From the NCBI RefSeq assembly GCF_002288825.1, contig NZ_NSLI01000003.1, positions 124,001-188,000 on the forward strand: a DNA stretch of 64,000 nt, written 5' to 3'. Position numbers and translations under genes: made by a program. Positions 49,905 to 63,297 of the stretch are shown piece after piece. The first letter of the stretch is position 1, and each line of letters begins with the position of its first letter. The notes beneath the pieces were generated by a model. It ran no database searches, was not told the DNA's origin, and worked only from the letters and a program-made list of their open reading frames with translations. This DNA is from Sphingomonas lenta. Lineage in GTDB: Bacteria; Pseudomonadota; Alphaproteobacteria; Sphingomonadales; Sphingomonadaceae.

Positions 49905-52900
49905 TCAGCCCGCGGTGACCGCGACGAGGTTGTCGTCGCTGTTGCGGTCGACATACTTATTATACGGGTCCACCCCCGCGAAGGCCGGCTTGGACGCGGT
50001 GACGATCCGGACGCGCTGGCGGCCCGAGCCGATCGGGCGGCGTTCGAGCAGCAGCACGTCGGCGCGCGCGAACTCGCCCGCGCCCGGCCGCTTCGCGAAG
50101 GCGCCCACCTCGATCTCGTCGGCGAGCCGCGCGCGCGTCTCCGCGCCCTTGCCGTCGGCATAGGCCTTGCCCGCCTCCACGTCGACCGCCGTCTCCCAGC
50201 GGCCGTCGGGCAGCCGGCGCGTCGTGGCCCCGCTCGCCTTCAGGTCGTAGATCGTGATGCGGCGGAGCAGGTCGATCACCAGCTCGCGTTCGGCGGGCGT
50301 GCGGGCGAGCGACAGAAAGCCGTCCACCAGCTCGGTCGATCGCGGATAGGGCGCACCGCGGAAGCGGTGGCGGGCGATGAGCCCCGCGAGCATGCGGTTC
50401 ACGCGCGCCTCGCCCAGCCGGTCCTGGAGCAGGTACATGACCACCGATCCCTTGCGGTAGTGGATGTAGCCCTGGTTCTCCATGCGCTCCATGGGCAGCT
50501 CCTCCAGCGCCTCGCCGCCGCGCGAGCGGAGATAGTTGTCGAGCTCGTATTTCAGGAAGCGCCGGATCTTGTCGTCGCCGTAGAGCTGCTTCATCACCAT
50601 CAGCGCCGAATATTGCGCCAGCGTCTCGACCCAGATCGTGCCGCCCTGCTGGTCGGCGCCGACGACCTGATGGCCCCAATATTGGTGCCCGATCTCGTGC
50701 GCGGTGACGTAGCTGACATAGTCGATCTTCTCGGGGTCGCTGGCGTCCGCCAGAAAGCCGATGCGCTCCGAGTAGGGGACCGTCCCCGCAAACGCCTGCG
50801 CGAAGCTGGCGTAGCCGGGGAACTCCATCACGCGCGCATAGGGGAATTGGTAGGGCCCGAAATTCTCGCGGTAGTAGCGGAGCGACCGCGCCATTGCGTC
50901 CAGCATGCGGTCGACATTGTACGGGTGCCGGCGATCGTAGAAGACCGACAGCTGGACGCCGTCCGCGACGGCGTCCTTGCGGGCGTAATCCGCCGACTGG
51001 ATCGAGAAGAAGGCGAGAATGGGCGCGCTCGACACGTAGCGCGCGGTGCGCCGACCGTCCGCGGTCACGTCGGACACGAGCCGGCCGGGCGCGATCGGCG
51101 TCTGGCCCGCGTCGGTCGACACCGTGATGTCCGAGCGGACCCAGTCGGCGTCGGCGATGTAGTTGCGGCGCACGCCCTTCGGGTCCTCCAACCTGGCGGG
51201 GCGCAGCTCGGCGGGCAGGCCGTGGGAGCGCCGCTTGACGCGGTCGGAGAGCAGGCCCTGCCGGCTCATGCCGATCTGCGGCAGGATCTCGAAATTGTTG
51301 AGGAAGGTGCCGTTGGCGACGAGCTGCGGGTCCTCGGCGTTCGCCACCATGCCGCGGCGCTCGCGCGTGGTGCGGAAGCCTATGGCGCCGCCGGCGCCCG
51401 CGGGCAGCGGACGGTCGAAACGGTAGATGCGGTGCTTGAACGCGCGGTCGTCGGAGACGAGGCGCGCGCCGGGGACCGTGATCGCCGCGATCTCCGTCCA
51501 GCGGTCGGGCAGGCGGACATGGATGTCGGACAGCGGCGCGCCCGTATCGTTCACGAAGCGGTACTCGCCGGTGGCGACCATGCGGCGCTCGGCCGGCCGG
51601 AGGTCGACGTTCATGCGCACGTCGGTCAGCGACGGCTGGGGCAGGTTCTCGTACCGGAGATACTTCTTCTCATAGGCGGCGAGCCGCGCCTCGTCGTCGT
51701 CGCGGGTGCGGTACTCGTTCACCACGTTCATGTCGCGGTAGAGGTGCGCGCCCGTGCCGGCCGCGACCAGCAGCGCGGCCGCGAGCGCCGCGCCCGCGGG
51801 CGAGGCCAGGCGCGCGGGCAGCTGGCCCACGCGCCGCCGGAGACGCGCCTCCGTGCCGCGTCGCCAGAGCAGGTGCGCCAGCACCGCCAGCGCGATCGCC
51901 CAGGCCCCCCAATAGAGGCGCAGCCACCAGGCCCGCGCCGCGCCCAGCCGGTCGCCGTTCATGTCGGACAGCTGCACCTGGCCGGTCGCGCCATAGTCGT
52001 AGAGCGGGTGCTCCCAGCCGATGTTGGTGAGCGTGATGCTGGCGACGAGGTAGCCGACCATGATCGCCCAGCCGACATATTTGTTGGGGCTGAGCGCCTG
52101 GACGAACACCGCCAGCACGGCGAGGATCACGAAGCTCACCGTCATCGGCAGGACGTACCAGCCGAAATACTGGCCTAGCGCCAGATCGTCGCCGCCGCGC
52201 GCGACCTGCACCGCCAGCGCGACCAGCACCGACACCAGCAAGGTCGCGAACAGCACGCCCGCGACCGCCAGCGTCTTGGGGAACATATAGGCCCAGTTCG
52301 GAAGCGAGGTCGCGTCCACGATCTCGTGCATGCGCCGCTCGCGGTCGCGCCAGACCAGCTCGCCCGCATAATAAATGGCGATAATGATCGGGATCAGGCT
52401 GAAGCTGCCCAGCAATATGTCGATGAGCCAGAAGGTGCGCGGGCGGATGGGCGTGCCGAACATCTCGCCGCCGAAGAGGAGGCCGCCCACGGCGTTGAAC
52501 GCGCCCACCAGCAGCAGGACCAGGAACGCCGGGCTGCGGAACACGAGCCGCATCTCGAAGCGCACGCGCGCCCAGAAGCGCGCCCATGCGGCGGCGCGCG
52601 GGCGGACCGGGGGCAGCCGGTCGACGACGCGCGGCTGGGTCGCTGCGAGCTTCTCCTCGCGGCGTTCGGCGCGGCGGAGCGCCCGCTTGGAGGCGCCGCG
52701 CTCGGCGAAGCTGAATCGCCAATAGGCGACGCCCAAGCCGAGCAGGCCCAGGCCGATCGCGAGCAGGCGGTTCCACAGCAGCGCGCCCTCGAAGGGCGGC
52801 ATGCCCGCGTTCGACTCCGACGCGGTCCAGTATCGCGTCACCTCGCCGAACGCGGCGATGCCGAACGGCTCGAAAAGGGCAGCCGTTTGGCGCAGCTCCG

Positions 52901-53495
52901 GATTGGAGCCGACCACGCCGTTGATGACGAAGTAGAGCACCAGAAAGACGACCACGCCCATGTAGCTGTAGGTCATCGACCGCGTCATCGTCGCGACCGC
53001 GAAGAAGATGGCGGCGGTCAGGAATAGGTCGGGCAGCGCGAGCAGGAAATAGGCGTAGGCGTAGTCGGCGAGGCGGTTCGGCCCCAGCGTCTCCCCGTCG
53101 ATCCACGGCATGAGCGAGCCGAGGAAGATCGCCAGCGGCACCGCCGCGAAGGCGATCGCCGCCGCGCCGAACGCGCCCAGGAAGCGCGCGAGGAGGTAAT
53201 CGAACTTCTTGACGCGCGTGGAGCGGACCATCGGCCCGAACCCGCTCTCGTCGTCGCGCACGATCACGTTGGCGACGAAGGCGGTCGTCACGAACATGAA
53301 GAACAGGGACATGATCAGCGTGGTCTGCGCGATCGCGACCGGCGCGTTCTTGTGGATGTTCCCGCCGGAGCCGATCTGGATCTGCTCCACCGTGACCGAC
53401 CCGAAGGTCAGCAGGAAGAACAGGATGGAGACGACCCAGAAGACGGGATTGCGGAGCTGATAGCCGAGCTCGAAGCGGGCGATGGCGCCGAACAT
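49905..53495 (-). CDS. ABC-2 permease fused to M1-family aminopeptidase
   Basis: The 1196-residue protein joins two ABC-2 permease modules (about residues 1-580, twelve or so helices) to a C-terminal zinc-peptidase domain of the M1 family (about 620-1196). The peptidase has HEIGHQYW with zinc ligands H933 and H937, and a third ligand candidate E957 in WVETLAQYSALM; the spacing is one residue longer than the classical HExxH-x18-E. The peptidase lies after the last helix, probably outside the cytoplasm. Its ATPase partner is the next gene, 3 bp away. It may handle peptides at the membrane during export. Confidence 0.88.
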   Translation of the reverse strand: MFGAIARFELGYQLRNPVFWVVSILFFLLTFGSVTVEQIQIGSGGNIHKNAPVAIAQTTLIMSLFFMFVTTAFVANVIVRDDESGFGPMVRSTRVKKFDYLLARFLGAFGAAAIAFAAVPLAIFLGSLMPWIDGETLGPNRLADYAYAYFLLALPDLFLTAAIFFAVATMTRSMTYSYMGVVVFLVLYFVINGVVGSNPELRQTAALFEPFGIAAFGEVTRYWTASESNAGMPPFEGALLWNRLLAIGLGLLGLGVAYWRFSFAERGASKRALRRAERREEKLAATQPRVVDRLPPVRPRAAAWARFWARVRFEMRLVFRSPAFLVLLLVGAFNAVGGLLFGGEMFGTPIRPRTFWLIDILLGSFSLIPIIIAIYYAGELVWRDRERRMHEIVDATSLPNWAYMFPKTLAVAGVLFATLLVSVLVALAVQVARGGDDLALGQYFGWYVLPMTVSFVILAVLAVFVQALSPNKYVGWAIMVGYLVASITLTNIGWEHPLYDYGATGQVQLSDMNGDRLGAARAWWLRLYWGAWAIALAVLAHLLWRRGTEARLRRRVGQLPARLASPAGAALAAALLVAAGTGAHLYRDMNVVNEYRTRDDDEARLAAYEKKYLRYENLPQPSLTDVRMNVDLRPAERRMVATGEYRFVNDTGAPLSDIHVRLPDRWTEIAAITVPGARLVSDDRAFKHRIYRFDRPLPAGAGGAIGFRTTRERRGMVANAEDPQLVANGTFLNNFEILPQIGMSRQGLLSDRVKRRSHGLPAELRPARLEDPKGVRRNYIADADWVRSDITVSTDAGQTPIAPGRLVSDVTADGRRTARYVSSAPILAFFSIQSADYARKDAVADGVQLSVFYDRRHPYNVDRMLDAMARSLRYYRENFGPYQFPYARVMEFPGYASFAQAFAGTVPYSERIGFLADASDPEKIDYVSYVTAHEIGHQYWGHQVVGADQQGGTIWVETLAQYSALMVMKQLYGDDKIRRFLKYELDNYLRSRGGEALEELPMERMENQGYIHYRKGSVVMYLLQDRLGEARVNRMLAGLIARHRFRGAPYPRSTELVDGFLSLARTPAERELVIDLLRRITIYDLKASGATTRRLPDGRWETAVDVEAGKAYADGKGAETRARLADEIEVGAFAKRPGAGEFARADVLLLERRPIGSGRQRVRIVTASKPAFAGVDPYNKYVDRNSDDNLVAVTAG

Positions 53496-53498
53496 GGC

Positions 53499-54401
53499 TC
53501 AGGCCGCCTTGGGAAGGGCGGCGGCGGGGCTGCGGCGCGAGCGCGTGAGCGTCGAGAAATAAACGTCCTCCAGGCCGCCCACCGTGAGCTCGAACCCGTC
53601 GCCGGGATGCGTGTCGGACAGCACGTGGATGATCGTGCGCCCGGCGAACAGGCGCGTGGAGATGATCTCGTGGCCCTCGCGGTGCCGCTCCAGTTCGTCG
53701 CGGCCGATCGTCTTGGCCCAGACGCGGCCGCGCGTCGCCTCAATCAGCTGGAGCGGCGCGCCTTCGAGCTGGATGCGCCCCGCCGCCAGCACCGCCATGC
53801 GCGGGCAGAGGTCGGCGACGTCCTCGACGATGTGCGTCGACAGGATCACCACCACGTTCTCGCCGATCTCGGCGAGGAGGTTGAGGAAGCGGTTGCGTTC
53901 CTCCGGGTCCAGCCCCGCGGTGGGCTCGTCGACGATGATGAGCCGGGGGTTGCCGATCAGCGCCTGGGCGATGCCGAAACGCTGCCGCATGCCGCCGGAG
54001 AAGCCCGCGATCGCCTTTTTGCGGACGTTCCACAGGTTGGTCTGGTTGAGCAGCGTCTCGACGGTGTCGCGGCGCTCGGACGCGGAGGCTATGCCCTTCA
54101 GCACCGCCATGTGGTCCAGCATGTCGTACGCCGACACGCGCGGGTAGACGCCGAAATCCTGCGGCAGATAGCCCAACGTCTCGCGCAACCGCTCCGGCTC
54201 CGCGACCACGTCAATGTCGCCGAAAGTGATCCGGCCCGAGGTCGGGGTCTGAAGTGTGGCGACAGTCCGCATCAGCGTCGATTTGCCCGCGCCGTTGGGT
54301 CCCAGAAGGCCGAACATGCCCGTCGGAACTACTAAGCTCACATCGTCCAGGGCGCGCGTGCCGTTGGCGTAGACGTGGGTGACGCCGGTCAGTTCGAGCA
54401 T
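53499..54401 (-). CDS. ABC transporter ATP-binding protein
   Basis: The 300-residue ATPase has Walker A (GPNGAGKSTLMRT), the Q-loop (LPQDFGVYP), signature (FSGGMRQRFGIAQAL), Walker B (RLIIVDEPTAGLDPEER) and switch His (STHIVEDV). It is of the ABC-2 exporter type and lies 3 bp upstream of the permease-peptidase gene on the same strand, so the two proteins form one transporter. The start ATG 54401 follows GGGGGAA. Confidence 0.92.
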   Translation of the reverse strand: MLELTGVTHVYANGTRALDDVSLVVPTGMFGLLGPNGAGKSTLMRTVATLQTPTSGRITFGDIDVVAEPERLRETLGYLPQDFGVYPRVSAYDMLDHMAVLKGIASASERRDTVETLLNQTNLWNVRKKAIAGFSGGMRQRFGIAQALIGNPRLIIVDEPTAGLDPEERNRFLNLLAEIGENVVVILSTHIVEDVADLCPRMAVLAAGRIQLEGAPLQLIEATRGRVWAKTIGRDELERHREGHEIISTRLFAGRTIIHVLSDTHPGDGFELTVGGLEDVYFSTLTRSRRSPAAALPKAA

Positions 54402-54685: not shown

Positions 54686-57283
54686 ATGATGAGCCAGACC
54701 AAGCTGAGCGCGCGCACGGCCCTGCTGCTGAGCGCGTCGCTACTGCCGATCGCGCCGGCGCTGGCGCAGGAAGCGCCGCCCGTGGCGCAGGCGGGCACCC
54801 AGGGTCAGACGACCGGCCAAGGTCCCGGCACGCCCGAATCGCCCCAGCCCGTGAGCGAGCAGCCCGTCGACGAGTTCGACCCGCTGACCGAAGTGGTCGT
54901 CACAGGACAGACGACGCGCGACCGCCCGCTGATCACCTCGTCGGCCGACATCACCTTCGCCGACCGCGGCGACATCGACCGCCGAGCACCGCGCTCCACC
55001 GCCGACCTGCTCGAGCTGGTGCCCGGCATCTTCGTCGAGGGCACGGCGGGCGAGCTGTCCAACAACTACTCGGTGCGCGGCCTACAAGGGGGCGGTCAAC
55101 GCTTCATCCAGCTGGAGGAGGACGGCTTCCCGATCATCTACCAGGGGGGCGGGGCGGACTTCTTCTTCCAGCAGGATCTGACGATCGACCGGCTGGAAGC
55201 GGTCAAGGGCGGCTCGTCGGGCGTGCTCACGGTGAACGGCGCGGGCGCGACCATCAACTTCATCTCGCGCCGCCCGAACTTCACGGAGGAGCAGGGCATC
55301 CTGCGTGTGCAGGCGGCCGACTTCGGCCTGAAGCGCGCGGAGTTCTACTATTCGACGCCGCTCGTCGCCGACCAGCTCGCGTTCAACATCGGCGGCTTCG
55401 TCCAGAGCAACCCCGGCTTTCGCGAGAACCCGTTCGACTATGACGGCTACCGCCTGAAGGCGATGCTGGAATACCGGTTCGGCGAGGGCGGCTTCTTGAG
55501 GTTCACCGGCAAGATCGGCGACATCAAAGCCGCATATTATGCCACACAGCCCTATGCGTTCAATGACGGCGAGCCGGGCGGCATCCCGGGCCTCGATACG
55601 CAAAGCGGCAACATCGGCGGCGACGCGTTCACGCGCATCTCGGTGCCCGTGTCGACCTTTGTCGAGGCGGACGGCTTCCGCGATTTCCGTTACTCGGAAG
55701 GCGTACGCGTCAAGACCAAGCAGGGCCGCATCGACTTCGAGGCGCCGCTGACCGACTCGATCGACCTGTTCGCGCGCGGCCGCTACCTTGACCTCTCCTA
55801 CGACTTCAACGGCCTGTTCCCGGGATCGGGCACGGGCAACGCAGGTCTCGCCAGCGCGGTGACGTACCTGACGCCGGGCGCGGCTTCGCCGATCAACGAC
55901 CTGCTCACCGCGGGCCGCGCGGCATTTCCGACCGCGGCGCGCTTCGGCGTCCGCAACCTGCGCACGGGCGTGGTGCTCGGCTCCAACCAAGCTGCCGAAC
56001 TCAATGCGCTGAACGGCAACGGCTTCCTGCAGCAGACGACGCTCAACCATGACTTCCAGGAAGGCCACGATTTCGGCGTCAACGCCGGCGCGCGCTGGGA
56101 AGCCGATTTCGGCGGCGTCCAGAACTCGCTCACCCTCGGCGTGATCTATTTCGACGTAGCGCGATCGCAGAACCAGTCGGCCACCGCCGCCGTCGTCAAC
56201 GACGTGCGCACCAACAGCGACATCTACGACATCGTCGCCTTGAACGCCGGCAATCAGGTGATCGGCACGTTGTCGGACAACGGCCTCATCTCCTACGGCA
56301 ATTGGGGCGCGGGCATACGGCGGCGCGAGGACGAGTCTTTCTCGATCTACGCGAACGACGAGATCGCGATCGGCGACCTGCGCGTGGATGCGGGCATCCG
56401 TTGGGAGCAGCTCGACAGCCGCTACGACGAGGGCAACGCCGCCGCGGTGAACCAGCCCGTGCCCGCCGGCGTAGGCGGCGTGGTGCGCACGGTGGGCTTG
56501 ACGTTCAACGGCACCTTCACGACCGTGGAGCGCGAGCAGGACAAGGTCGCCTGGACGGTGGGCGCGAACTACCTGATCACGCCCAACCTGTCGGTTTACG
56601 CCCGTTACGCCGACGGCTTCCAGACCAACAACACGGACCCGATTACGCAGATCGAGCTCTACGAGGCGGGCGTTCGCTTCCAATACGGGCGGGTAATTAG
56701 CGCGAGCGCGACTTATTTCGAGACCTACTTTAACGACCAGTTCTACAACTTCATCGACCCGAGCGACCCCACGCGGCAGACGGCGTTCCTCGCGGACCTG
56801 CGCACCAAAGGCTTCGAGTTCGACGTCCAGTTCCGGCCCGTCGATTGGTTCCAGATCGACGCGTTCGGTGTGTTCCAGGACCCGACGTTGAACAACCTCA
56901 GCCTGAACGGCGTTCCCGACGATACGTTCAACGGCAACCGGCCGGAGCGCACGCCCAAGGAGCTGGTCACCATCTCGCCCATCGTGCGCATTCCGCGCGG
57001 GCTGGGCGATATCTTCGCGCGCTTCAAATATGTGGGCGACATCTTCGCCGACTCCGGCAACGGCGTCGCGCTGCCCGACTATTGGGTGACCAGCGCCGGC
57101 TTCAACCTGAACCTGACCGAGCGGCTGGAGGTGAACTTCGTGGCGGAGAACATCTTCGACGAGATCGGCCTGACGGAAGGCAACCCGCGCCAAGGCCAGC
57201 GGCAGAACATCTCCGACGGATTCTTCTACGCGCGCGGCATCCCTGGGCCCACCTATACGGGCTCCGTGACGTTCAGGTTCTGA
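54686..57283 (+). CDS. TonB-dependent outer-membrane receptor
   Basis: The 865-residue receptor has a signal peptide (MMSQTKLSARTALLLSASLL ... ALAQ), a TonB box-like EVVVTGQ (about 70-76), a plug domain (TADLLELVPGIFVEGTAGELSNNYSVRGL, VKGGSSGVLTVNGAGATINF) and a 22-stranded barrel ending in TGSVTFRF. It takes up a substrate too large for porins. The adjacent glycosidase-like, trehalase and halogenase genes suggest a glycan or oligosaccharide ligand, not iron. It begins a two-gene unit with the glycosidase-like protein. Confidence 0.92.
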   Translation: MMSQTKLSARTALLLSASLLPIAPALAQEAPPVAQAGTQGQTTGQGPGTPESPQPVSEQPVDEFDPLTEVVVTGQTTRDRPLITSSADITFADRGDIDRRAPRSTADLLELVPGIFVEGTAGELSNNYSVRGLQGGGQRFIQLEEDGFPIIYQGGGADFFFQQDLTIDRLEAVKGGSSGVLTVNGAGATINFISRRPNFTEEQGILRVQAADFGLKRAEFYYSTPLVADQLAFNIGGFVQSNPGFRENPFDYDGYRLKAMLEYRFGEGGFLRFTGKIGDIKAAYYATQPYAFNDGEPGGIPGLDTQSGNIGGDAFTRISVPVSTFVEADGFRDFRYSEGVRVKTKQGRIDFEAPLTDSIDLFARGRYLDLSYDFNGLFPGSGTGNAGLASAVTYLTPGAASPINDLLTAGRAAFPTAARFGVRNLRTGVVLGSNQAAELNALNGNGFLQQTTLNHDFQEGHDFGVNAGARWEADFGGVQNSLTLGVIYFDVARSQNQSATAAVVNDVRTNSDIYDIVALNAGNQVIGTLSDNGLISYGNWGAGIRRREDESFSIYANDEIAIGDLRVDAGIRWEQLDSRYDEGNAAAVNQPVPAGVGGVVRTVGLTFNGTFTTVEREQDKVAWTVGANYLITPNLSVYARYADGFQTNNTDPITQIELYEAGVRFQYGRVISASATYFETYFNDQFYNFIDPSDPTRQTAFLADLRTKGFEFDVQFRPVDWFQIDAFGVFQDPTLNNLSLNGVPDDTFNGNRPERTPKELVTISPIVRIPRGLGDIFARFKYVGDIFADSGNGVALPDYWVTSAGFNLNLTERLEVNFVAENIFDEIGLTEGNPRQGQRQNISDGFFYARGIPGPTYTGSVTFRF

Positions 57284-57284
57284 G

Positions 57285-59354
57285 GTGACGACCATGCGGA
57301 CGGCGGCGCGTCGGCTGCTGGTGGGCGCGCTGCTGCTCGGGTCCGGGGCGGCCGCGCAGGAGGCGGGTCGGCGGCCGGAGTTGGCCTATCAGCTCACCGA
57401 AGGGCAGAACATCAACGTCTTCGTGCGCAAAGGCCCGTCCGCCGCGCACATGCTGCTCCGCAACGGCTCGGACCCGCGCATCCTGGTCGCGTTCCCGGCA
57501 GGCAATAGCGGGGTGGGGCTGTGGTTCCAGCCCGTGGCCGCGCCCGCCACCTGGACGCTGGACGCGCCGCCGCAGCCGCTGACGCTCGAGGACGGCAAGG
57601 GCCGCCCGCTCCACGGCGTGCGTGCGGTCGCGACGGTCGCCGCGCCGAGGCTCCAGGTGAAGGAGGCGGTGCTCTCCAACGTTCGCTACCTGCGCGATTA
57701 CCAGGCGATCGCGAAATACCCGCCGGAGGTCGCCGCCAAGGCGGTCGCGAGCGCGGACGGCCTGACCTGGGCGCGCGACCGGCTGGACGGTGCGCCCGGC
57801 TATCTGCTCCGCTTGCGCGTGCTGGAAGGGCGTGTCGAGGACGGCGCGATCGTCGCGCCCACGAACGGCCGCATCCGGCTGGAGATCATAGCGGCCACGG
57901 GCGATCCGCCACTGACCGGCCTGGCCGAGGGCGAACTGCTGAACGAGCGCGCGGCTCCAAACCCCGCCGCGCGCAATGCGCTCCGTTTCCTCAGCTACCG
58001 CGAGAAGTTCCTGGCGGGGTCCTGGCGCTTCAACACCTATTTCGGTCGCGACACGCTGATGTCGGTGCGCCTGCTCATGCCCGCGCTCCGGCCCGCGGCG
58101 ATCGAGGCGGGGCTGAACTCGGTGCTCGCGCGCTTGAACGCCGCGGGCGAGGTCGCGCACGAGGAGGGGATCGGCGAGTTCGCCATCATGGAGCGCCGCC
58201 GCGCGAGCGAACGGGGCAACGCGCCCGACCTCGATTACTTCATGGTCGACGACGACTATATGCTCGCGCCCGTGGCGGCGAGCTACCTGCTCGATCGCTC
58301 CCCACGCGAGCAGGCGCGGGCGTATCTGGCGCGCTCTATCCCAAGCGAAACGGGTCAGGGCGGCACGGTGCGTGTTGGCGAGGCGATGGTGCGCAATCTC
58401 CGCTTCGTGGTGGCCCAAGCGCAGCCTTTCGCCGACCGGCCCGAATGGAGCCGGCTGATCGCGTTCAAGCCGGGCCGCCCCGCGGGCCAGTGGCGCGACA
58501 GCCACGAAGGGGTGGGCGGCGGACGCTACGCCTATGACGTCAACGCGGTGTTCGTCCCCGCCGCGCTCGACGCCGCGCGGCGGATGCTCGCGGCGGGGCT
58601 GCTCGACCCGTATCTGACGGACGCCGACCGTGCGGCGCTCGGCCAGGCGGCAAGCGCGGCGCAGGTCTGGCGCACCCGTGCGCCCGCGCTGTTCCGCGTG
58701 TCGCATCCGGCCGCGGCGGCCACGCCGGCGATCCGCGGCTACGCCCGCACCCTGGGCGTCCCGGCCGAGCCGGGGCTGCAGGCGCTCGGCCGCGGGCCGC
58801 TGACGTTCCACGCCATCGCGCTCGACGAGCGGGGGCGGCCGGTGCCGATCATCCACTCGGACGAGAGCTTCGACCTCCTGTTCGGCGAGCCGAGCGCGGC
58901 CGATCTCGACACCTATGTCGGCGCGATGATGCGGCCGTTCCCGGCGGGATTGATGACGCCGATCGGCCTACTCGTCGCCAATCCCGCGCTCGCGGGCGAT
59001 GCGTTGCAGGCGCAGTTCACGCCTGCGCAATATCACGGTGCGGTCGTCTGGTCGTGGCAGCAGGCGCTGCTCGCGGCGGGGCTGGAGCGGCAGCTTGAAC
59101 GGCGCGACCTGCCGGCCGCGACACGCGCGCGCCTCGAACGGGCGCAGGCGGAGCTGTGGCGCGCGATCGAATCCGCGCGCGCGGTGGCGAACTCGGAGCT
59201 CTGGTCCTGGGCGTACGCGCAAGGCCGCTACCAGGTCGTGCCGTTCGGCGCCGGGCGGAAGGACGTGGACGAGTCCAACGCGGCGCAGTTGTGGAGCACG
59301 GTGTACCTGGCGGTGCAGCCGCCGGGCGCTACGACGCTTCCAGAAAAGCGGTGA
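57285..59354 (+). CDS. Secreted (alpha/alpha)6-barrel glycosidase-like protein
   Basis: The 689-residue protein from GTG 57285 (or ATG 57294) has a signal peptide (MRTAARRLLVGALLLGSGAAAQ). A beta-rich N-terminal domain (about 25-230) is followed by a helical domain with GSWRFNTYFGRDTLMSVRLLMPAL, EVAHEEGIGEFAI, LDYFMVDDDYMLAPVAASYLL and WRDSHEGVGGGRYAYDVNAV. This order resembles glycogen-debranching-like or GH63/GH15-type six-hairpin glycosidases. The acids in GRDT, HEEG and DSHEG are possible catalytic residues. It starts 1 bp after the receptor stop, so the pair act on the same substrate. Confidence 0.7.
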   Translation: MTTMRTAARRLLVGALLLGSGAAAQEAGRRPELAYQLTEGQNINVFVRKGPSAAHMLLRNGSDPRILVAFPAGNSGVGLWFQPVAAPATWTLDAPPQPLTLEDGKGRPLHGVRAVATVAAPRLQVKEAVLSNVRYLRDYQAIAKYPPEVAAKAVASADGLTWARDRLDGAPGYLLRLRVLEGRVEDGAIVAPTNGRIRLEIIAATGDPPLTGLAEGELLNERAAPNPAARNALRFLSYREKFLAGSWRFNTYFGRDTLMSVRLLMPALRPAAIEAGLNSVLARLNAAGEVAHEEGIGEFAIMERRRASERGNAPDLDYFMVDDDYMLAPVAASYLLDRSPREQARAYLARSIPSETGQGGTVRVGEAMVRNLRFVVAQAQPFADRPEWSRLIAFKPGRPAGQWRDSHEGVGGGRYAYDVNAVFVPAALDAARRMLAAGLLDPYLTDADRAALGQAASAAQVWRTRAPALFRVSHPAAAATPAIRGYARTLGVPAEPGLQALGRGPLTFHAIALDERGRPVPIIHSDESFDLLFGEPSAADLDTYVGAMMRPFPAGLMTPIGLLVANPALAGDALQAQFTPAQYHGAVVWSWQQALLAAGLERQLERRDLPAATRARLERAQAELWRAIESARAVANSELWSWAYAQGRYQVVPFGAGRKDVDESNAAQLWSTVYLAVQPPGATTLPEKR

Positions 59355-60003
59355 TCGTCAATCGCCCGACCGTCGGGTCGGGCGACAGCGCCGAGCCTTC
59401 GCTGATCGCGCCGCTGTGGAGCAGCGAGCTCCTGTAGATCAGAGCGCGGTTGTAGCGCGCCTCGGCGTGCGCGAACCGCTCGAACAGCGGCGTGTCGCCC
59501 GCGACATAGGCCGGGGGAGGGGGCGAGCGGCGCAGCTCGGCTGCGAGGCGGCCGAAATAGGTCGGCGCGCGCGCCTCGTCGATCGTCTCGAACCCCGTCG
59601 AGCGGTGCCGGAAAAAAGCGGTGCCGTCGCCTCCCTCCGGCGACAGATAGTGGACCAGCGCGATCCGGCCCGGTGCGACGGCGTCGACGTGCGGCAGACG
59701 CTGCTGCATGGCGAGCTTGTCAGGCGCGGCGGTGACGATCGAGTAGCTCGCGTCGAGCAGGCGCATGCTCCGGGCGCAGCCGAACACCTCGCGCAGCACG
59801 GTCGCGATGACGGGCGCCTGAGCGGGCAGGTAGTCGGGTGGGAGCGATGCACGGATGCCGGGATAGTGCCGACCTGCGGGGCCGAAGGACGCGGCAACGG
59901 CGGCGGCGCGGAGCGCGTCCGGGTCGGGCGCGAAGCCGTCGACGACGACGAGCGGCTGGAGTTCGCGCCCGATCAGCCGCGCCTTGATGTCGGGTCCGCT
60001 CAC
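59329..60003 (-). CDS. DUF6445 family protein (2-oxoglutarate/Fe(II) oxygenase-like)
   Basis: The 224-residue protein starts at GTG 60003, overlapping the halogenase stop by 4 bp. It is a DUF6445 protein: VVVDGFAPDPDALRAAA, HYPGIRASLPPDYL, HVDAVAPGRIALVHYLSPEGGDGTAFFRHRSTGFE and RALIYRSSLLHSGAI. The HVD ... H pattern with a later RSSxxHSG fits a jelly-roll Fe(II) oxygenase. It accompanies flavin halogenases in many sphingomonads. Its 3' end overlaps the convergent glycosidase-like gene by 26 bp. Confidence 0.83.
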   Translation of the reverse strand: MSGPDIKARLIGRELQPLVVVDGFAPDPDALRAAAVAASFGPAGRHYPGIRASLPPDYLPAQAPVIATVLREVFGCARSMRLLDASYSIVTAAPDKLAMQQRLPHVDAVAPGRIALVHYLSPEGGDGTAFFRHRSTGFETIDEARAPTYFGRLAAELRRSPPPPAYVAGDTPLFERFAHAEARYNRALIYRSSLLHSGAISEGSALSPDPTVGRLTITAFLEAS

Positions 60004-61529
60004 CGCGCCGTGGCGCGCGCGGGCGTCCCGGCGCCGCCGCCGATGATCTGCGCCACCACCTCGTCGTGCTTGGGCAACGTCGGCGCGGCGCGCGCGACCA
60101 CAGCCGCGATCTGCTCGAGCTGCGCGCGGTTCGTCGCCGGATCGAGCGTGTCGGCGAGCGGGTTGTAATCCTCCGCCTCGACGCCCTGGCCGTTCAGCAC
60201 CGCGAGCCAGCTCGCGTCGCGAAACAGGTCGTCGGTGCCGATCATCAGCCGTCCCGACCGCCGATACTGCGCCATCTTCTCGGCCAGCGTGTCGGGGATC
60301 GCCATGTGCCGGCAATGCGTCCACAGCGCGTCCGACTTGCCGCTGGTGGCGTGGTAATGGAGGATCAGGAAATCCTTGATGTCGTCCATGTCCGCGCCGA
60401 ACACCCTGTCGAACCGCCGGGCGAGGCCGGGATCCATGTCGCGGTCGGGGAACAGCGTCAGCAGCTTGGCGATGCCCGACTGGATCAGGTGGATGCTGGT
60501 CGACTCGAGCGGCTCCAGGAAGCCGGACGACAGGCCGATCGCGACGACGTTCCCGATCCAGCCGCGCTTGCGCCGCCCCGCGGTGAAGCGGAGGAAGCGC
60601 GGCTCCGCCAGCGCCTCGCCGTCCAGCTCGGCGAGAAGCGCCGCCGCCGCTTCATCGTCGGAGATGAACGGGCTCGCGTAGACGTAACCATTGCCCGTGC
60701 GATGCTGTAGCGGGATGCGCCATTGCCACCCGGCGGCGCGCGCCGTCGAGCGCGTGTAGGGCGTCGTCTCGGCGACGCGCGCGCAGGGCATCGCGACCGC
60801 GCGGTCGCAGGGCAGCCAGTGCGACCATTCGTCATAGCCCGCGCTCATGACTCCCTCGATCAGCAGCGCGCGGAAGCCGGAGCAGTCGATGAACAGGTCG
60901 CCCTCCAACCGCTCGCCGCGCTCCGTCGTGAGGGCGGCGATGTGGCCCGTTTCCGGATGGCGCTCGACATCGCGCAGCTTGCCCTCGACGCGCCGTACGC
61001 CGTCCGCCTCCGCGAGCGTGCGCAGGTGGCGCGCGTAGAGCCCTGCGTCGAAGTGGTAAGCGTACCCCAGCGTCGACAGGATCGAGCGCGCGTCGCCCTG
61101 CGGCTTGGCGAAGCGGTTCTCGTCCGCGAGACGGGTCGCGAGCGAGAAGGCGGAGAGCGGCAGGTCCAGGCCATCGGCGCGCGCCTTCAGCCAGCGATGG
61201 TGGAACGAGACCCCCGGCAGCTGCACGCCATAGTGTCCGAAAGGGTGAAAATAACGGTGGCCCGGTCGCGCCCAGTCGACGAACTCGATGCCGAGCTTGA
61301 AGCTCGCCTTGGTCGCGCGGAAGAACTCGGCCTCGTCCAACCCGATCAGCTCGTTGAACCAGTGGATCGTCGGTATCGTCGCTTCACCGACGCCCACCGT
61401 GCCGATCTCGTCCGACTCGAGCAACGTCACCCGGAGCCGCCGGCCGAAGCTCTTGGCGAGCGCCGTCGTCGTCATCCAACCGGCGGTGCCGCCGCCCAAG
61501 ATGACCACGCGCTCGATCCGGTCCGTCAT
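60000..61529 (-). CDS. Flavin-dependent tryptophan halogenase-family protein
   Basis: The 509-residue enzyme has the FAD motif GGGTAGW (12-18), the halogenase motif WQWRIP (268-273), the lysine aligned with PrnA K79 (K78 in SFKLGIEF) and the glutamate aligned with E346 (E342 in FLEPLEST). All are intact. Such enzymes use reduced flavin, oxygen and halide to make HOX, which is guided to a substrate by the lysine. In sugar-uptake loci with TonB receptors the substrate is unknown and halogenation has not been shown. No flavin reductase is adjacent. It is coupled to trehalase by a 4-bp overlap. Confidence 0.9.
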   Translation of the reverse strand: MTDRIERVVILGGGTAGWMTTTALAKSFGRRLRVTLLESDEIGTVGVGEATIPTIHWFNELIGLDEAEFFRATKASFKLGIEFVDWARPGHRYFHPFGHYGVQLPGVSFHHRWLKARADGLDLPLSAFSLATRLADENRFAKPQGDARSILSTLGYAYHFDAGLYARHLRTLAEADGVRRVEGKLRDVERHPETGHIAALTTERGERLEGDLFIDCSGFRALLIEGVMSAGYDEWSHWLPCDRAVAMPCARVAETTPYTRSTARAAGWQWRIPLQHRTGNGYVYASPFISDDEAAAALLAELDGEALAEPRFLRFTAGRRKRGWIGNVVAIGLSSGFLEPLESTSIHLIQSGIAKLLTLFPDRDMDPGLARRFDRVFGADMDDIKDFLILHYHATSGKSDALWTHCRHMAIPDTLAEKMAQYRRSGRLMIGTDDLFRDASWLAVLNGQGVEAEDYNPLADTLDPATNRAQLEQIAAVVARAAPTLPKHDEVVAQIIGGGAGTPARATAR

Positions 61530-63097
61530 CGCGCTACCTCCGCGCGCACCGCCGGGTCGAGGTCGGGATAGCGTTCCAGGAGCGCGCTGGTCACGCCGTT
61601 GGTCCAGCCGAACCCGTCCTGCGTCGGATACTCGCCGCCGCCGCCGGGCTTGATCTCCTCCACGTCGTACTTCTCCAGCATGCGGCCCGTTTCGCGATAC
61701 ACCCGACCGACGGTCGCGAGCCAGCGCACGGCCACCTCGCGGGCGAGCGGCTCGTGGCCTGTCCGCGCCAGTCCCTCGACGGCGATCCATTGCAGGGGCG
61801 CCCAACCGTTGGGGCGGTCCCATTGCTGGCCGGTGACGACGAGCGTGGTACGCAGGCCGCCGGGCGCCAGCAGGCGCTCGCGCGTCGTCGCGGCGACCGC
61901 GCGGGCCTGATCAGCCGAGGCGAGCCCGACGAACAAGGGGTAGAGCGTCGCGGCCGAGAGCACCGTCGTCGGCCCGCGCGCGCTCAGGCTCCAATCGGCG
62001 TAGCGGCGCTCGCCCGGCAGCCACAAATAGCGGTCAATCGCCGCGCGCCGCCGGTCGGCGCGGCGGCCGAACTGGGCGGCGCACGCGGCGTCCGCGACCG
62101 CGCGGCACCTTTCGGCGATGCGGCGCTCGGCGGCGTAGAGCAGGCTGTTCAGGTCTATGGGCACGATGTCGGTGGTGCGCACGCTCGCCAGCGTGCGCCC
62201 GTCGCGGAGCCAGCGCGACGAATAGTCCCACCCGCTCTCCGCGCCCGCGCGCAGGTCGCGGTAGGTCTGCGCCGCCGGCCTGGGCGCCGCCTCGCGCGCG
62301 GTCGCGACGTCCTCGGCGTAGGACTCGTCGCGCGGTACGTCGCGATCGTCGCCGTAGCGGTTGAGCAGGCTGCCGTCCGGCATCCGTACCACGCGCGCGC
62401 CCTCCATCCAGAAGCCATGCTCGCGCCGCAGCGCCCGGAGCCGCCGCGCCGCCGTCGCCGGCTCCGCGTCGGCACCCAGGTCGAGCATGAGCGCGAAGAA
62501 GGGCGGCTGCGAGCGGCTGAGATAGTAGGTTCGCGTGCCGTTCGGGATGCGGCCGTAGCGCTCGACCAGGCTGGTGAAGCCGTCGAGCATGGACTCAACC
62601 AGCGTTCCCTGGCCATCGACACGCAGGCCCAGCATGGTGAAGTAGCTGTCCCAATAGTAGATTTCGCGGAAACGCCCGCCGGGCACGACGTAGGGCGCGG
62701 GCAGCGCGATCGCGGACCCGCCCGGCTCGGCGGTCTTCGCCGGCCGCGCGAGCGTGGGCCAGAGCCGACGAATGTGCTCGCGCAGAGGCAGGGCGCCAAC
62801 GTCGTTGACGCCTGGCACGACGAAGTTGGCGAGCACGAAGCGCCGCAGCGCGTCGCCCGCGGGCCGATCGCGCCGGTAATCGGCCATGATCGCCGCGGGC
62901 GGGCGCTTAGGGACGACGTCGACGAATGTCTTGCCGTCGGGGAACACGCGCCCGAGCTGCACCGCCCGGAACAGCTCGCCATAGAGGTCGGCGGGCGTGC
63001 GCGCCTGCTCGGTCGGCGCGGGCGAGGTCTGGGCCGGCGCGCCAACGGCGGCGCAGGCGATCAGGAGGACGACGGCGTAGGGTATGAAGCGGATCAC
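61526..63097 (-). CDS. treA: Periplasmic trehalase (GH37)
   Basis: Trehalase splits alpha,alpha-trehalose to two glucose units. The protein has both family signatures: PGGRFREIYYWDSYF and QQWDRPNGWAPLQW. The acidic catalytic pair lies in the conserved blocks, for example AGAESGWDYSSRW. I chose GTG 63097 (523 residues), which gives a signal peptide VIRFIPYAVVLLIACAAVGAPAQ (cited by its ends, residues 1-23) and follows GAGG; an ATG at 63166 would add 23 residues. It is first of the trehalase-halogenase-DUF6445 operon. Confidence 0.93.
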   Translation of the reverse strand: MIRFIPYAVVLLIACAAVGAPAQTSPAPTEQARTPADLYGELFRAVQLGRVFPDGKTFVDVVPKRPPAAIMADYRRDRPAGDALRRFVLANFVVPGVNDVGALPLREHIRRLWPTLARPAKTAEPGGSAIALPAPYVVPGGRFREIYYWDSYFTMLGLRVDGQGTLVESMLDGFTSLVERYGRIPNGTRTYYLSRSQPPFFALMLDLGADAEPATAARRLRALRREHGFWMEGARVVRMPDGSLLNRYGDDRDVPRDESYAEDVATAREAAPRPAAQTYRDLRAGAESGWDYSSRWLRDGRTLASVRTTDIVPIDLNSLLYAAERRIAERCRAVADAACAAQFGRRADRRRAAIDRYLWLPGERRYADWSLSARGPTTVLSAATLYPLFVGLASADQARAVAATTRERLLAPGGLRTTLVVTGQQWDRPNGWAPLQWIAVEGLARTGHEPLAREVAVRWLATVGRVYRETGRMLEKYDVEEIKPGGGGEYPTQDGFGWTNGVTSALLERYPDLDPAVRAEVAR

Positions 63098-63297
63098 CGA
63101 AACCTCGAGAACGAACGCGCCCGACTCTATCGGCAAGCCGGCGCAAGGGGGAGTGCTTTCCGGCATGGAGCCTACAGGTCGAACGCTCCGCAGCCGCGAC
63201 GATCGGTGCTATGCTTTCCGCGCGAGGCGAAGATGTTCGCCGTCGTCCCGAGCGGCGCGTCCGCGCCGTCCTGGGCAGGTCCGGAGCCGGCGCTGCG
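63098..63297. other. Non-coding upstream region of the trehalase operon
   Basis: Between the trehalase start and the dehydrogenase remnant I see no gene and no strong promoter or operator motif. The trehalase operon promoter must lie here or in the decayed region beyond. Confidence 0.4.

Follow-up and report, generated by a model that had tools for sequence, protein, structure and literature searches.

Halogenase genes beside TonB-dependent receptors (TBDRs) recur in Sphingomonas, Caulobacter, and Xanthomonas, and loci of these genera that join a TBDR, a halogenase, and a glycosidase are presumably carbohydrate utilization (CUT) or polysaccharide utilization locus (PUL)-like systems. A literature search that left most subscription journals outside its coverage found no paper on halogenases in CUT- or PUL-like TBDR loci and none joining a tryptophan halogenase, a TBDR, and a trehalase; the accessible parts of PMC8269204, PMC11340318, PMC4391529, and PMC11337851 were not relevant to such a locus. 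The locus described here occupies positions 54686 to 63166 of a 64,000-nucleotide stretch (the window) of the 3.76-Mb genome of Sphingomonas lenta. Five open reading frames were confirmed there: a TBDR and a glycosidase-like protein (GH) on the plus strand and, converging on them, an α,α-trehalase, a flavin-dependent halogenase (HAL), and a DUF6445 protein on the minus strand. We put at about even the chance that this locus serves the uptake and breakdown of trehalose or of a trehalose-containing or related α-glucoside, with the halogenase and the putative dioxygenase DUF6445 acting on something other than the sugar.

The receptor gene (54686 to 57283; 865 amino acids) is followed by the GH gene (57285 to 59354; 689 amino acids), the 3' end of which overlaps that of the DUF6445 gene by 26 bp (59329 to 59354), as an earlier note on this DNA had stated. 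On the minus strand, the trehalase gene (61526 to a GTG at 63097 or an ATG at 63166) shares 4 bp (ATGA, 61526 to 61529) with the HAL gene (60000 to 61529, ATG start; 509 amino acids), a coupling that the note had singled out, and HAL is coupled likewise (GTGA, 60000 to 60003) to the DUF6445 gene (59329 to 60003, GTG start; 224 amino acids). The identities proposed in the note for the receptor, DUF6445, halogenase, and trehalase genes agree with their Pfam matches, and its glycosidase-receptor context was recovered as well, GH and TBDR both being present and conserved together in relatives. The frames are not due to chance, because each of the five genes has near-full-length relatives in other genomes. 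Profile searches of the whole genome gave nine matches to PF04820 (halogenase) and one each to DUF6445 and PF01204 (trehalase).

With a TBDR and a glycosidase conserved together, the plus-strand arm has the makeup of a carbohydrate utilization locus. A TBDR lies within 2 kb of GH in 38 of the 39 GH loci tabulated (the table omits L159, which is the record of L160; L178, with GH in pieces; L179, with the GH frame outside the open reading frame list; and G758, a short fragment). The window receptor has plug and barrel domains (PF07715, 44.0 bits, and PF00593, 82.8 bits, both above cutoff) and a TonB-box-like EVVVTG, spotted by eye. Profiles for the STN signaling domain, sigma, and FecR had no match at the window locus, and the receptor found no match among PDB sequences. 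GH starts at 57285 with an ATG following at 57294 and has a signal peptide by eye. It belongs to no Pfam or NCBIfam family: the window protein had no Pfam match at an E value of 1, and the same scan of 29 members of its family gave scattered matches only (best E value, 0.029). Its AlphaFold2 model (pLDDT 81.4, with weak stretches) has a predicted (α/α)6-type fold with an N-terminal β domain. A GH133-like amylo-α-1,6-glucosidase was considered as a candidate class for it. The nearest solved fold is 7vma (VIA Z 28.3; 486 residues aligned; root mean square deviation, 5.0), to which the GH profile also has a weak match (E value, 2e-4 over 116 positions), and both Foldseek and VIA return glycoside hydrolases and phosphorylases. 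Because the Foldseek TM-scores are low (0.31 to 0.41 by query), the fold assignment is based on the VIA Z-score and the secondary structure. Proteins of this putative (α/α)6 glycosidase-like family, which has no Pfam entry, occur in 59 of 151 genomes sampled from the genus.

The trehalase matches PF01204 with an E value of 1.8e-142 and the Escherichia coli periplasmic trehalase (2jf4) with 503 bits over residues 57 to 532 (476 residues). The alignment retains the AESGWDYSSRW and GGGGEYP regions, which we take to hold the catalytic Asp and Glu of GH37 trehalases. The GTG at 63097 is the likely start, from which a signal peptide can be made out by eye, and the enzyme is probably periplasmic.

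Trehalase lies within 8 kb of GH in five loci, with 4-bp couplings in three of them and its position varying. Besides the window, these are a Novosphingobium capsulatum plasmid (NZ_CP140001; L158), where sigma-FecR-TBDR-GH-HAL-treA lie on one strand with 4-bp overlaps; Caulobacter OR37 (L025), with sigma, FecR, TBDR, GH, HAL, and trehalase, the last two overlapping by 4 bp in an order opposite to that of the window; L181 (genome G053), where trehalase lies 106 bp before the sigma frame of a sigma-FecR-TBDR-GH unit and HAL is present; and L200 (genome G037), where it precedes the sigma frame of such a unit by 69 bp and no HAL was found. Since trehalase joins a TBDR-GH unit without a detected halogenase in L200, it tracks the receptor and GH and not HAL. 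On a trehalase tree of 52 rows (including genes fetched twice, with L025 and L158 on long branches and the L200 trehalase left out), the four linked trehalases require 4 changes (4 to 4 in 5 to 95% of bootstrap trees), and well-supported branches force at least 2. The linked trehalases do not group as one clade, and trehalase seems to have been added to these loci on more than one occasion. A single ancient receptor-GH-HAL-trehalase cassette with later losses was also considered and is not supported, a single change being found in 0% of bootstrap trees.

Conservation in the genus separates constant partners from the occasional one. HAL orthologues, defined by at least 70% identity (the next gap reaches down to 60%), occur in 39 of the 151 genomes, with GH within 3.3 kb in all 39, and HAL lies within 4 kb of GH for 55 of 60 GH genes. 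DUF6445 was found at 27 of the 30 orthologue loci read and trehalase within the 1.5-kb flank at 1 of the 30, the window; elsewhere among the 39 genomes, the nearest trehalase on the same contig is 74 kb from GH. A contig scan for HAL relatives, from which the best 80 of at least 593 confirmed relatives were kept, includes 13 of 72 to 80% identity (L017 to L028 and L035) that keep GH and TBDR beside HAL, with DUF6445 directly after HAL in 11, absent there in L035, and trehalase in its place in L025. The steady partners of HAL are GH and DUF6445, in contrast to trehalase. The view of the earlier note that trehalase as a translationally coupled partner of the halogenase deserves study is borne out, such pairs being present in Caulobacter OR37 and N. 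capsulatum too, but as a conserved partnership it has to be rejected for the genus, in which it is linked in 1 of the 39 genomes although 28 of them hold a full-length trehalase. Nor are orthologous halogenases always found without trehalase: it is a 73% identical halogenase that overlaps the trehalase gene in Caulobacter OR37. What remains looks like a real but facultative tie of trehalase to the receptor and GH.

It could be argued that trehalase and halogenase are neighbors by chance, a widespread trehalase gene having ended up before a HAL-DUF6445 operon without any functional tie. We consider this unlikely, yet well worth weighing, given that, of the 39 orthologue genomes, that of the window alone links the two, that 86 of the 151 genus genomes contain a full-length trehalase, and that another TBDR-like match is present on the stretch in 13 of the 20 best-scoring trehalase neighborhoods read. 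An accident fits poorly with five linked loci in which the position of trehalase varies and three have 4-bp couplings, and the window trehalase is the only one of its genome. Because L181 entered the set as a trehalase locus and L200 on account of its close coordinates, the genus sample gives the less biased figure: GH and a full-length trehalase lie within 10 kb of each other in 3 of 42 genomes (the window, G053, and G037) versus 0.23 expected (Poisson P = 0.002), an expectation that takes the genes to be placed at random and the genomes to be 4.2 Mb in size and independent of each other, with no correction for kinship. Trehalase is also present in 42 of 59 genomes with GH versus 44 of 92 others (odds ratio, 2.7; P = 0.007, kinship ignored). 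The assumptions behind the expected figure weigh against reading the locus as one for sugar uptake, as do the exclusion of partial or below ~112-bit trehalase matches from the linkage count; the 28 orthologue genomes with a full-length trehalase that is linked only in the window; the absence of GH-trehalase linkage from all 7 genomes of a second genus that have both genes and from all 16 family-sample loci read (L164 to L179, of which three come from the genus of the window, two are incomplete, and one is broken); a siderophore-like receptor unlike that of three other halogenase loci of the genome; and a GH that has no characterized close relative by sequence, in a locus whose substrate is predicted.

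From the gene content, motifs, and predicted folds observed here and the recurrence of trehalase in several lineages, we infer a substrate, compartments, regulation, and a role for halogenation as follows. The glycoside would pass the outer membrane by way of the receptor and be cut to glucose by the exported GH and by the trehalase in the periplasm, and the glucose would move onward via transporters encoded elsewhere. A FecI-type sigma factor, FecR, and an STN receptor in many relatives suggest ligand-driven surface signaling, which would have been lost in the lineage of the window. HAL and DUF6445 should be cytosolic, because neither has an export signal by eye, and may carry out the oxidative tailoring of an aromatic small molecule or peptide, one containing indole or tryptophan, that accompanies the carbon source or signals its presence. 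The uptake reading is supported by two other loci of the same genome that pair a halogenase with a receptor, one holding a GH9 enzyme (L009) and the other two GH13 enzymes (L010).

HAL matches PF04820 with an E value of 1.2e-183 over profile positions 1 to 457 of 458, and the motifs reported in the earlier note, WxWxIP and the catalytic Lys and Glu, are present as WQWRIP (268 to 273), Lys78, and Glu342, together with GGGTAG. Its best PDB matches are 6frl (BrvH), 9luq, and 6y1w (Xcc4156), with scores of 473 to 487 bits for BrvH and Xcc4156 versus 257 to 281 bits for PrnA and RebH. Flavin-dependent halogenases add bromine or chlorine to aromatic compounds, and their mechanism requires an electron-rich arene. 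Lys78 and Glu342 align with Lys83 and Glu349 of BrvH, which the accessible part of the BrvH report describes as the counterparts of the catalytic residues of other halogenases (PMC5945002). As far as the accessible text of the two reports goes, BrvH and Xcc4156 are active on indole and its derivatives and not on free tryptophan, and their natural substrates are called unknown (PMC5945002, PMC7336383); they are without the substrate-binding loops that close over free tryptophan in the PrnA/RebH type (PMC7336383, same limitation). Halogenase chemistry directly on trehalose, for which the earlier note proposed a screen, is therefore unlikely, both on mechanistic grounds and because the closest characterized enzymes act on indoles in those parts of the reports (PMC5945002, PMC7336383). 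The peptidyl-Trp hydroxylase QhpG (described in the available portion of PMC7876137) was considered because of an NCBIfam match and rejected, the score being 31.7 bits versus a cutoff of 240 bits.

DUF6445 matches PF20043 with an E value of 9.4e-72, and His105-x-Asp107, His196, and Arg214 are conserved without exception (21 of 21 rows of the alignment); we take the first three residues to be iron ligands and Arg214 to bind 2-oxoglutarate. The model (pLDDT 95.1) has a double-stranded β-helix fold and is closest in VIA to OGFOD1 (Z 13.8; root mean square deviation, 2.8; 172 residues aligned), with PHD2 at Z 12.2; nearly all of the top rows are 2-oxoglutarate/Fe(II) oxygenases by name, including lysyl and prolyl hydroxylases, and Foldseek agrees, with TM-scores of about 0.5. 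A sequence profile search against PDB gave three matches at E values of 0.5 to 0.9, judged to be chance, and no solved relative. DUF6445 is thus predicted to be a 2-oxoglutarate/Fe(II) dioxygenase. It is named in no paper found by our literature search, with its limited coverage of subscription journals. DUF6445 occurs in several halogenase loci, including L056, L059, L065, L074, and L088, which were selected by halogenase, and L191 (genome G098), which was not. The last is a different trehalase-DUF6445-halogenase neighborhood, in which about 14 kb hold a trehalase, a GH39 enzyme, a short-chain dehydrogenase, DUF6445, and a TIGR01782 receptor with a halogenase directly behind it.

The halogenase and DUF6445 might instead modify a polypeptide of their own locus, the receptor or GH, before its export, with a Trp halogenated or oxidized and a residue hydroxylated. 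We regard this as improbable, even though the active sites of BrvH and Xcc4156 are open, with peptide substrates suggested for these enzymes in the accessible part of PMC7336383, and OGFOD1 is the best structural match of the DUF6445 model, PHD2 and lysyl hydroxylases being nearby. In the tabulated loci, HAL accompanies a single receptor clade: receptor identity is at least 46% in 30 of 30 loci with HAL and at most 37% in the 8 of 8 HAL-less loci having a receptor, and receptor Trp540 is present in 30 of 30 receptors of the first group and 0 of 8 of the second. However, one supported branch separates all loci with HAL from the rest in both the GH tree (97/91; length, 0.11) and the TBDR tree (99/98; length, 1.12), which were midpoint-rooted for drawing only, and the presence of HAL is hence one event; as for Trp540, 55 columns in all, itself included, are distributed in this way. 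Across 29 loci, the distances among HAL proteins correlate about equally with those of the receptor and of GH (partial r, 0.50 and 0.42); within the two clades with HAL they follow GH (0.70 and 0.72) and not the receptor (-0.02 and -0.02), and no DUF6445 match was found near the loci of the second such clade. Judged from mirror distances and clade-specific residues, the case for HAL modifying the receptor is weak. We give only a slim chance to the idea that HAL and DUF6445 work as a pair in the oxidative tailoring of proteins or peptides in the service of a trehalose-type uptake receptor, placing a bromo- or hydroxytryptophan and a hydroxylated residue on a protein of the locus that is exported or on a peptide that serves it as a signal; if true, this would be the first function for halogenases beside TBDRs.

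The receptor also raises the question of iron. It scores 108.8 bits against the siderophore receptor profile TIGR01783, below the cutoff of 223.5 bits, and is not listed at an E value of 1e-3 or 1e-20 for the Xanthomonas-Caulobacter type TIGR01782 (cutoff, 310 bits), for which the receptors of three other halogenase loci of the genome score 511 to 659 bits. By these profiles, it is siderophore-like rather than of the Xanthomonas-Caulobacter type, which sets the locus apart in its genome. A locus that takes up a glycosylated chelator, strips its sugars with GH and trehalase, and attacks its aromatic part with HAL and the dioxygenase would suit the TIGR01783 similarity and the FecI/FecR/STN surface signaling of relatives. 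It is nevertheless a very doubtful explanation: the TIGR01783 score falls well short of its cutoff, no reductase or siderophore esterase family is found among the five genes, and FecI/FecR/STN-type signaling serves sugar receptors too.

Returning to sugar uptake, the 39 tabulated loci suggest that the receptor and GH are the core, to which HAL is often added in one receptor clade. HAL is present in 30 of the 39 (the second L204 copy being counted as having HAL on the basis of coordinates). Sigma, FecR, and STN occur together in 15 of the 39 and, of the 15 rows of the window clade, only in Caulobacter. The layout in the window would then be derived: the regulators would have been lost and DUF6445 acquired, HAL would have come to face GH, and trehalase would have been added at the front. 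L204 (G016:C16:22000-41900) holds two near-identical inverted sigma-FecR-TBDR-GH-HAL copies, with the sigma genes head to head and the TBDR genes 4.3 kb apart.

Adjacency of halogenase and receptor was seen in several loci, including three others of the S. lenta genome, each with a TIGR01782 receptor. L009 has a four-halogenase array with two Cupin_8 genes and the GH9 gene, L010 has one halogenase with its two GH13 genes, and L011 has two halogenases with LacI and major facilitator superfamily (MFS) genes. A fourth locus, L012, has one halogenase adjoining a COX15/CtaA gene, the scan there being limited to that neighbor. The second member of the recurring halogenase array is without the catalytic Lys, having RLG instead of KLG in 6 of 6 sequences covering the site: its own copy (L009, 11436 to 13070; G000:C6) and sequences more than 45% identical (L029, L031, L033, L034, and L050). 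It should be a conserved halogenase-like protein without halogenase chemistry, possibly a partner subunit. Positions 49905 to 54401 of the window encode an ABC ATPase and then a 1,196-amino-acid protein that fuses ABC-2 membrane domains with an M1 peptidase domain.

The locus gives a tractable handle on the role of receptor-linked halogenases and narrows the question to one defined GH, a trehalase pointing to sugar, and one receptor clade, in which 30 of 30 tabulated loci have the halogenase, whereas 8 of 8 sister receptors lack it; it also yields a glycosidase for which Pfam has no family, and it allows the class of function of DUF6445 to be predicted. Compared with known proteins, GH is predicted to match the fold of the Thermococcus amylo-α-1,6-glucosidase (7vma) along its whole length but shares 18% identity with it and differs in having no Pfam match and, by eye, a signal peptide. 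HAL resembles BrvH (487 bits) and Xcc4156 (473 bits) over near-full length, with the catalytic Lys and Glu aligned; unlike them, it sits in a receptor-GH locus with a predicted 2-oxoglutarate dioxygenase and a trehalase, and its activity is only predicted. The trehalase differs from its E. coli counterpart in operon context only. The N. capsulatum plasmid operon encodes the same functions minus DUF6445, with HAL and treA likewise overlapping by 4 bp, but it runs on one strand throughout, has treA behind HAL, keeps the regulators, and has its GH annotated as a hypothetical protein. The other TBDR-halogenase-glycosidase loci similarly hold a receptor and a halogenase within a few kilobases, two in this genome with GH9 or GH13 enzymes and a third with LacI and MFS genes. 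They have TIGR01782 receptors, GH9 or GH13 enzymes, and Cupin_8 proteins where the window has a siderophore-like receptor, a GH without a family, a trehalase, and DUF6445, and the sigma and FecR genes beside relatives of the window receptor are a further difference from these TIGR01782-receptor loci.

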